From Rhodothermales bacterium (GTDB lineage: Bacteria > Bacteroidota > Rhodothermia > Rhodothermales > UBA10348), in assembly GCA_017643395.1 (NCBI GenBank), contig JAEPNP010000006.1, positions 124,001-188,000 on the forward strand: 64,000 nucleotides of DNA, given 5' to 3'. Below the pieces are notes generated by a model that saw nothing but the letters and a program-made list of their open reading frames with translations, did no database searches and was not told the DNA's origin. The position numbers and the translations under genes were made by a program. This document shows, piece by piece, positions 55,391-58,793 of this stretch (within the stretch, counting starts at the first letter, position 1; every line of letters begins with the position of its first letter).

Positions 55391-55419
55391 TTTGCGTACA
55401 AACCTGACACGTATAACTG
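55391..55419 (+). promoter_or_regulatory. Candidate promoter of the HtrA gene
   Basis: TTTTG followed 17 bp later by TATAACTG, about 18 bp before the start codon. This loosely fits the Bacteroidota pattern (TTTG, then TAnnTTTG) and also a TATAAC -10 box. Weak evidence, but the best match in this 190-bp gap. Confidence 0.3.
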
Positions 55420-55436
55420 ACTATTCGCACCCAGAA

Positions 55437-56963
<1,527 letters not shown>

Positions 56964-56968
56964 GTCAC

Positions 56969-57757
56969 TTGAATCGCATCGAGGCAGCAGTAGACGCCGC
57001 GGCCGCGGAGCTTGGCTCCGCAGCCGCGGCGTCTGCCGTTCAGGCCCTTGCCGAGCGGGCCCTGGGGCATTGGCCCGAAGGGCAATTGCCCCAGGGCCTG
57101 CTCGGCGCGCAGGTGGAGATCCGGCCGGCGCCGGTTTCCGGCGCCCGGCCGGTGGATGCGTGCGAGGCCGGCTGGGAACTGCTTTCGCGTGCCGTGACCG
57201 CCACCCCGCGACACGTGCCGACCGTGCCGATCTTGTACTCGCTCTCGCGACTGGCCGACACGCTGGACGGAGAAACCCTGCTACGCCTGGCGGCCTCCCT
57301 GGATCAGGTCATTCTCGGTTCCGCAACCCCGGCGTTGCGCCTGGAGTGGGCAGACGGCCTGTCGTCGCGGCGGGGCGACGCTCTTGTTCTCCGTCACCTT
57401 GCTGAGATCACGGCCTCCACCCGCGCACTGTGCGGTCACGTGCGGACCGGAGACGGAAGCGGCAGGGTGTGCGAAGCGTCCATCGCCCGTACTGCCGACA
57501 GCCGGGGCAACGGTCCGATCGGGTTGAGCTCGGGACCTGAAGACCAGGGTCCGGAGGGACTGACCATCCGCCCGGTCGGCCGCGCGGCGAGCCCTGCCCA
57601 CCGCGTCGCATTCCAGGCCTGGACGACCGTCACGGCGTATGATGCGGGCACGCGCACGGGCCTTCCGAGCGTTTCCGGACCAGGTCTCGTGGATTTTGAC
57701 ACGCCCGAAGCCAGCCACACGGCCCTTTACGGACCGAATCGGCGCGTATGGATATGA
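56969..57757 (+). CDS. Unrecognised protein; 5' end lies in three strong hairpins
   Basis: An open frame of 262 codons with a TTG start 5 bp after the protease stop, ending 16 bp before the epimerase start. Codon usage (mostly G or C at third positions) and the helical middle ('LYSLSRLADTLDGETLLRLA', 'LVLRHLAEITASTRALC') look protein-like. No signal peptide, membrane helix or known motif was found. The first 61 codons run through three long inverted repeats, which encode Ala-rich 'DAAAAELGSAAAAS', then 'ERALGHWPEGQLPQGLLG' and 'IRPAPVSGARPVD'. GTG at 57113 is a possible later start. No function is proposed. Confidence 0.5.
   Translation: MNRIEAAVDAAAAELGSAAAASAVQALAERALGHWPEGQLPQGLLGAQVEIRPAPVSGARPVDACEAGWELLSRAVTATPRHVPTVPILYSLSRLADTLDGETLLRLAASLDQVILGSATPALRLEWADGLSSRRGDALVLRHLAEITASTRALCGHVRTGDGSGRVCEASIARTADSRGNGPIGLSSGPEDQGPEGLTIRPVGRAASPAHRVAFQAWTTVTAYDAGTRTGLPSVSGPGLVDFDTPEASHTALYGPNRRVWI
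56990..57036 (+). repeat. Stem-loop 1 of 3
   Basis: The arm 56992-57011 (AGACGCCGCGGCCGCGGAGC) pairs with 57015-57034 across a TTG loop; 19 of 20 pairs are Watson-Crick, with one C-A mismatch (57004/57022). It extends outward by one G-T and one G-C pair. It starts about 27 bp after the protease stop. No T-run follows. Confidence 0.9.
57050..57106 (+). repeat. Stem-loop 2 of 3
   Basis: The arm 57050-57069 (GCCGAGCGGGCCCTGGGGCA) pairs with 57087-57106 along all 20 positions, with one G-T wobble (57057/57099). Inside, GCCC and GGGC (57073-57076/57080-57083) close a GAA loop, so the whole 57-nt element folds into one nearly continuous hairpin. It begins 13 bp after stem-loop 1. No T-run follows. 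Confidence 0.9.
57121..57152 (+). repeat. Stem-loop 3 of 3
   Basis: CCGGCCGGCGCCGG pairs with CCGGCGCCCGGCCGG across a TTT loop; all 14 pairs form with a single bulged C (57146). It begins 14 bp after stem-loop 2. The low complexity of CCGG-rich sequence makes this one individually less striking than the first two. Confidence 0.8.
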
Positions 57758-57773
57758 GCACGTTTCACCTGGC

Positions 57774-58793
57774 ATGAGACCCATCGTCACCGAGCCACTC
57801 GTTCTGAAGTTGGCACGCCCCTTTCGTATTGCGCACGGCGTCAGTGCCGAGCGCACCAATGTGCTCGTGCGGCTTGGCGAAGCGGTTGGCGAGGCGGGAT
57901 TGCCGCCCTACCTCGGGGTCGGCTATCCGGAGGTGGCAGCGTGGCTTGACGGAGTGAAGCTGCCCGAATGGAACCCGGATTCGCCGCCTCCCATCCGCAC
58001 ATGGATCTCGAATCTGCCCGACGGCCCGGCTGCGGCTCGCTGCGCCCTGGACCTTGCCCTGCACGATTGGTGGGCCCAGGCCGCCGGCCAACCGCTTCAT
58101 GCAATGCTCGGCCTGGATCCGTCTGCCGCCCCGGCCAGCTACCGCACCGTTGGAATTCCGGAAACCGGAGCCGCTCCCACCCTGCCCGAGGGCGACCGTC
58201 TGAAACTCAAGCTGGGCTCGGGCGACACCGACGAGGACGTGCGCGTGGCGCGTACCGTGCGCCTGACCCGTCCCGAGGCCGAACTGTGCGTCGATGCCAA
58301 CGGTGGGTGGTCCATCCCCGAGGCGGTGCGCATCATCCCGCAACTGGCTGAACTAAAGGTCTCATTCATTGAGCAGCCCATCGCCCAGACCGACCCGGAG
58401 GACTGGCACCTGTTGCGTCGACTGCTGGCTCCATCGGGACGCCCACCGCTGATTGCGGACGAGAGCGCGCACACGGTGGACGATCTGATCGCACTGGCCG
58501 GTGCGGCGGACGGCGTCAACGTCAAGCTCGCCAAGTGCGGCGGCATCGCTGCGACACTCAAGCTGATCGACATGGCGCGTGCGCTTGACATGCAGGTCGT
58601 GCTGGGCTGCATGGTCGAAAGCGCCGTCGCCATCACGGCCGCGGCACATCTGGCTTCGCTGGCGGACTTCACGGATCTGGACGGCGCCGAACTGATCGCC
58701 AATCCTCCGTTTGAAGGCGTGGCACTTGTCGACGGGCACCCAAGGCTTCCGGTCGCCCCCGGAATTGGAGTCAGAGCGACCATGCACGCCTGA
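57774..58793 (+). CDS. L-Ala-D/L-Glu (dipeptide) epimerase, enolase superfamily
   Basis: Epimerises L-Ala-D-Glu from murein to L-Ala-L-Glu so that it can be degraded. 339 residues. Active-site residues fit the family: K144 and K146 in 'RLKLKLGSG', metal ligands D174 ('CVDANGG'), E200 ('FIEQPI') and D229 ('ADES'), and the second-face lysine K251 in 'VNVKLAKCGG'. The ATG at 57774 gives the usual N-terminus. Other dipeptide specificities exist in the family, but proximity of mpl supports the murein role. Confidence 0.88.
   Translation: MRPIVTEPLVLKLARPFRIAHGVSAERTNVLVRLGEAVGEAGLPPYLGVGYPEVAAWLDGVKLPEWNPDSPPPIRTWISNLPDGPAAARCALDLALHDWWAQAAGQPLHAMLGLDPSAAPASYRTVGIPETGAAPTLPEGDRLKLKLGSGDTDEDVRVARTVRLTRPEAELCVDANGGWSIPEAVRIIPQLAELKVSFIEQPIAQTDPEDWHLLRRLLAPSGRPPLIADESAHTVDDLIALAGAADGVNVKLAKCGGIAATLKLIDMARALDMQVVLGCMVESAVAITAAAHLASLADFTDLDGAELIANPPFEGVALVDGHPRLPVAPGIGVRATMHA

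Follow-up and report, generated by a model that had tools for sequence, protein, structure and literature searches.

Tandem palindromes in the first codons of a DUF711-like gene behind htrA: probable products of template switching, one of them apparently preserved by selection

Intercistronic stem-loops serve as attenuators, weak terminators and mRNA-stability hairpins. Quasipalindrome template switching, described with thyA and lacZ reporters in E. coli, perfects imperfect repeats with the nascent strand serving as template (PMC7202029). Template switching has also been inferred in yeast coding genes (PMC8604942), and in RNA hairpins it is able to generate a stem and to imitate compensatory change (PMC8794818). 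Furthermore, mitochondrial genes of Nematomorpha contain coding palindromes whose arms are translated and for which template switching is suspected (PMC6649704). Here, we describe three consecutive hairpins at the start of a gene that follows the protease gene htrA in a Rhodothermales genome (G000), analysed within a 64-kb stretch of DNA (hereafter the window) and across related genomes. Palindromes of this kind are already known, and it is their tandem arrangement and their position behind htrA that are of interest.

The hairpins lie in a forward-strand frame of 262 codons with a TTG start (56969–57757), hereafter gene X, which opens 6 nt past the stop of an htrA/degP serine protease gene (55392–56963, forward strand; NCBIfam TIGR02037, E 4e-126). 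Downstream follows an enolase-superfamily dipeptide epimerase/racemase gene (57774–58793, forward strand; Pfam MR_MLE_C and NCBIfam DgcA-like), giving the neighbourhood order mpl-htrA-X-epimerase. Judged by sequence comparison the frame is a real gene, because a full-length homologue, 40% identical, occupies the same place between htrA and the same epimerase in the same-genus MAG ‘Bacteroidota bacterium isolate OFTM201’ (G001). The original prediction had called this gene unrecognised, which holds insofar as neither X nor its G001 homologue matched a curated family above cut-off, but no longer holds at the level of profiles. X-locus proteins in the family show weak DUF711 matches (E 6.7e-5 and 22.3 bits for the homologue at L027, against a Pfam gathering cut-off of 25), in a genome of another family the gene immediately preceding that of the epimerase encodes a true DUF711 protein, and profile-profile comparison joins X to this true DUF711 protein with a probability of 97.5%. 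On these matches, X is a diverged relative of DUF711/UPF0210, not a member by the Pfam cut-off.

All three of the tandem hairpins predicted just past the htrA stop are present, between positions 56992 and 57152 of the forward strand. Hairpin 1 (56992–57034), which the htrA stop precedes by 29 nt, comprises a 20-bp stem with one C-A mismatch around a TTG loop (arms 56992–57011 and 57015–57034) and covers codons 8–22 of X, VDAAAAELGSAAAAS. Hairpin 3 (57121–57152) has a 14-bp stem with a one-base bulge and a TTT loop. For these two, the expected stem lengths (20 and 14 bp) and the single imperfection per stem were found as such, but hairpin 2 (57050–57106, codons 28–46), expected to resemble hairpin 1 in both respects, is longer and carries three imperfections. 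Its arms (57050–57076 and 57080–57106, 89% complementary) form a stem of 27 positions with 24 Watson-Crick pairs, one G-U pair and two mismatches near the loop, the latter being GAA. The loops are thus those predicted, as is the 14-nt gap between hairpins 2 and 3, but the gap between hairpins 1 and 2 is 15 nt rather than 13–14. Together, the hairpins span codons 8–61, within the first 61 codons as announced, and their stems are mutually different in sequence, not copies of one repeat. The T-run that follows the GC-rich stem of an intrinsic terminator is absent behind all three stems, also as anticipated. An Rfam search of the region returned sub-threshold matches only, mostly miRNA-shaped and none at a gathering score, which leaves the suggestion of a small RNA from the protease 3' region unsupported.

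The expectation that such stems exceed chance was borne out. The RNA fold of positions 56960–57180 reaches -160.1 kcal/mol (z -9.2 against dinucleotide shuffles), hairpins 1 and 2 rank as the top two of the window with scores of 17–18 (next best 12), and the best hairpin score in Markov copies of the window was at most 11. The excess also extends beyond coding constraint, as seen when the codons of X were recoded synonymously. With amino acids fixed, not one of 20,000 recodings reached the score of hairpin 2 (P < 5e-5), while the probability of a score at least as high as observed was 0.0036 for hairpin 1 and 0.03 for hairpin 3, which is mildly unusual; for hairpin 1 of G001, it was 1e-4. Codons 1–71 of X have a z of -5.6 when compared with synonymous recodings that follow the genome's own codon usage, whereas nothing unusual marks the following 71.

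Comparison with relatives separates hairpin 1 from the other two. Found at a single site in each of G000 and G001, it forms a perfect 20-bp stem in the latter. Thirteen of its 15 codons are identical between the two genomes, when only 39% of identical-residue codons are unchanged in the rest of X and 49–50% in htrA and the epimerase gene (~0.001 by a hand binomial estimate). The sole two codon changes oppose each other in the stem, forming an A-T pair in G001 and the unpaired C-A in G000. According to this codon comparison, hairpin 1 is conserved beyond what the protein alone needs. Hairpins 2 and 3 are absent in G001 and in the other relatives read, and among these genomes they are lineage-specific. 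Relatives with the same protein and no palindromes, which the original prediction had regarded as grounds for refutation, therefore exist in the case of hairpins 2 and 3, whereas hairpin 1 escapes this objection; it appears to be older and looks preserved by selection at the nucleotide level. G001 carries another 14-bp hairpin, across the htrA stop.

The hairpins of X belong to a wider set. A palindrome scan of 1.6 Mb of G000, of which 1.42 Mb is coding, revealed 8 coding palindromes with a score of at least 15, against none in 12 synonymous shuffles of the same 1.42 Mb; below a score of 12 there was no clear excess over the shuffles, so that palindromes scoring at least 15 form a separate class. 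These eight are spread over five genes, encoding a NadR-like ATPase, X, a GlcNAc-kinase-like protein, a TonB receptor and an FAD monooxygenase, and hairpins scoring at least 12 are strongly clustered (11 hairpins in 6 of 1179 genes, P < 5e-5). Loops of at most 5 nt were found in 16 of the 25 strong coding palindromes of three genomes (2.1 Mb), where ~0.7 would be expected; the excess is confined to such loops, those of the long palindromes being nearly all 3–5 nt. Stem mismatches in the class (5 G-U, 4 A-C and 10 other) indicate no bias toward mRNA pairing. Moreover, orthologues lack these palindromes at the same place, as observed for the FAD monooxygenase in 11 family genomes, for the GlcNAc-kinase-like gene in G001, and for the NadR-like and TonB receptor genes in the orthologues read.

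The two arms of a palindrome can also differ in their conservation. In the FAD monooxygenase compared with that of G005, the left arm, which is the conserved Rossmann motif, retains 8/8 amino acids and 20/24 nucleotides, whereas the right arm, its reverse complement, retains 2/8 and 12/24 and replaces otherwise different residues. The reverse is seen in the GlcNAc-kinase-like gene, which holds two palindromes in tandem, with 6/6 residues conserved in the right arm and 2/6 in the left. In both genes, one arm is thus apparently original and the other copied. The conserved FAD arm being a functional motif, selection on RNA would leave an arm unchanged too. In X itself, where G001 shows the locus without hairpins 2 and 3, this asymmetry is weak (about 14/27 against 10/27 for the arms of hairpin 2, from codons counted by hand).

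Other members of the class occupy varied settings. The NadR-like ATPase gene, ~1.5 kb left of the window, carries three tandem long hairpins (G000:C6:122291-122473; L057 2291-2473), the same arrangement as in X. A 24-position palindrome sits in the Rossmann GxGxxG motif of the FAD monooxygenase (G000:C5:86577-86627; L090 6577-6627), and the STN-domain TonB receptor has a 14-bp hairpin before the gene and a 23-position hairpin in its signal-peptide codons (G000:C1:50663-50792; L073 10663-10792). With palindromes at such varied places in genes, a gene-start position was rejected as a rule. Elsewhere, three short membrane-peptide genes, paralogues arranged in tandem, are each followed by similar GC-rich hairpins (G000:C3:231077-231974).

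Similar coding palindromes occur in G001, including a tandem pair, and in G004. As GC-rich controls, segments of S. meliloti pSymB and C. metallidurans held 3 coding hairpins scoring at least 14 in 0.9 Mb, so that the rate observed here is not clearly special. A family-specific process was accordingly rejected, as the controls also carry such palindromes and the rate difference is unconvincing; their presence in two unrelated GC-rich replicons suggests that the process is probably general. Loss of SbcCD was likewise discarded as a cause, since G000 has a clear SbcD and its tolerance of hairpins is thus not explained by SbcD absence. The G001 genome (98% complete) gave no SbcD match.

We consider it probable, with some reserve, that short-range template switching wrote these three palindromes into coding DNA and that hairpin 1 was then kept by selection. 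A stalled nascent strand would fold back over 3–5 nt, copy itself and return to the true template, one arm thereby becoming the reverse complement of the other. We infer such events from the features of the class (short loops, clustering, lack of G-U bias, absence from orthologues and one conserved arm), which fit snap-back template switching, and from the hairpins of X themselves, which have the long near-perfect inverted repeats (14–27 bp) and short spacers (3 nt) of its products. Among the mechanisms initially put forward, it is this palindrome-perfecting one that best accounts for the class. Hairpins 2 and 3 would be events of this sort on the lineage of G000, with no sign of function, and since the reading frame survives, the residues so introduced would be tolerated by the protein. 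The conserved synonymous sites of hairpin 1 are left unexplained by template switching; this hairpin may have been kept as a stem-loop behind htrA that would affect the amount or stability of the message over X and the epimerase gene.

The htrA-X junction was compared across genera. Four of these, g1, g3 (3 of 4 genomes), g4 and g9, carry hairpins of unrelated sequence no further than 100 nt from the htrA stop; stem-loops stand 25–64 nt past this stop in G000, G005, G010, G012, G016 and G019, and G001 has them at -4 and +55, when 4.3% of comparable junctions of G000 carry a hairpin (n = 677). No junction hairpin was found in the g7 and g8 genomes read, and the low-GC genera are mostly devoid of one, a strong hairpin occurring in g6 only in G017. 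Hairpins in 4 of 7 genera would arise by chance with a probability of ~1e-4 at the 4.3% rate, or 0.003 if the true rate were 10%, the test having been framed after the data were seen and the genera with a hairpin being those of high GC. Across three g3 species, the junction is near-identical over ~55 nt (L041 440-620 and the equivalents in L042 and L044) and looks like a conserved leader, its stem showing two compensatory pairs among only three sequences, a result equalled by 52 of 500 shuffles. A second, weaker hairpin, CTGTCATTCGG...CCGATGACAG, is present at the same junction. The htrA-X gap of g6 contains a conserved block, TTGGAGTCC...GTAGTATGTT (L033 389-475 and g6 equivalents), that could be a promoter for X; with this block conserved instead and the low-GC genera mostly lacking the structure, a junction hairpin was rejected as a rule of the whole family. 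The retention of hairpin 1 in G001, its unchanged codons and the junction hairpins of four high-GC genera make an RNA element preserved between htrA and X plausible, though no more than that. A bolder proposal, which we hold to be rather unlikely, is that template switching repeatedly supplies one functional site, the 3' edge of htrA, with stem-loops whose sequence is new, and that selection retains them, tuning X-epimerase expression; RNA structure would then be conserved by position alone, without homologous sequence across genera.

A purely functional reading would have all three stems selected as an intercistronic attenuator, an mRNA-stability element or a translation-control element behind the htrA stop, setting htrA apart from X and the epimerase gene. 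The conserved synonymous sites of hairpin 1 in G001, the unrelated stem-loops past the htrA stop in several genomes at a frequency above that of comparable junctions, and the compensatory pairs of the g3 stem argue for it, but hairpins 2 and 3 are missing from relatives, the positive genera are GC-rich, with G017 as the exception among low-GC ones, and the stem shifts between coding and non-coding positions. The g3 covariation also loses weight, three sequences being too few and template switching itself mimicking compensatory change (PMC8794818). We thus find this reading conceivable yet doubtful for the whole triplet, and the structured leader or translation-control element of the original prediction possible for hairpin 1, which G001 keeps with its synonymous sites conserved.

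Sequence composition, whereby an alanine-rich helix-turn-helix in a GC-rich genome would be self-complementary by itself, accounts for part of hairpin 1: its third positions pair with third positions and its Ala codons provide the pairing at the remaining two, so that 0.36% of synonymous recodings reach the observed score and the hairpin is in part a by-product of the alanine-rich peptide DAAAAELGSAAAAS. This does not apply to hairpin 2, which lies in another phase and was unmatched by recoding, and with the G001 version of hairpin 1 so rarely reached and three hairpins consecutive in one gene, composition is an improbable cause of the whole. In-frame palindromes within a coding gene also recall the mobile palindromic elements of Rickettsia, but the three stems differ, repeated copies were not found in the sampled genome sequence, hairpin 1 occupies one site in both G000 and G001, and X homologues share its helix-turn segment without the palindrome, so that hairpin 1 adds no residues; insertion of such an element is scarcely credible. 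The assemblies being drafts, inverted copies could in principle have been created during assembly or amplification, as the original prediction had cautioned; however, no palindrome interrupts its reading frame, hairpin 1 recurs in the independently assembled OFTM201 and similar palindromes exist in other genomes, making an artefact very unlikely. Short-range template switching with retention of hairpin 1 remains our preferred explanation.

These hairpins would be natural instances, in frame and in tandem, of a mutational process whose known cases come mostly from reporter genes. They illustrate that a conspicuous RNA-like fold within a gene is not necessarily an RNA, and they caution that covariation by itself is no proof of one wherever template switching operates. 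If the recurrent hairpin trailing htrA is functional, the site could serve to test whether mutation supplies, and selection retains, the same RNA structure independently across genera.

As with intercistronic stem-loops, the hairpins closely follow the stop of an upstream gene within a group of genes read in the same direction; unlike them, they lack a T-tract, are embedded in the coding part of the downstream gene and share no sequence homology across genera. The likeness to the E. coli system resides in one arm turning into a copy of the other, although the reporters record the laboratory correction of existing imperfect palindromes (PMC7202029), whereas here long tandem stems occur in several natural genes and the events are inferred. 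Homogenisation of arms leading to multi-base changes in genes is common to the yeast and RNA-hairpin studies and to our case, but those studies infer single events on dense phylogenies (PMC8604942, PMC8794818), while the relatives available here are too distant, the nearest being 40% identical in X. Finally, the Nematomorpha share with this locus (near-)perfect inverted repeats inside protein-coding genes, but their palindromes are numerous, mitochondrial and up to 284 bp (PMC6649704), whereas those described here measure 14–27 bp and are rare features of a bacterial chromosome.
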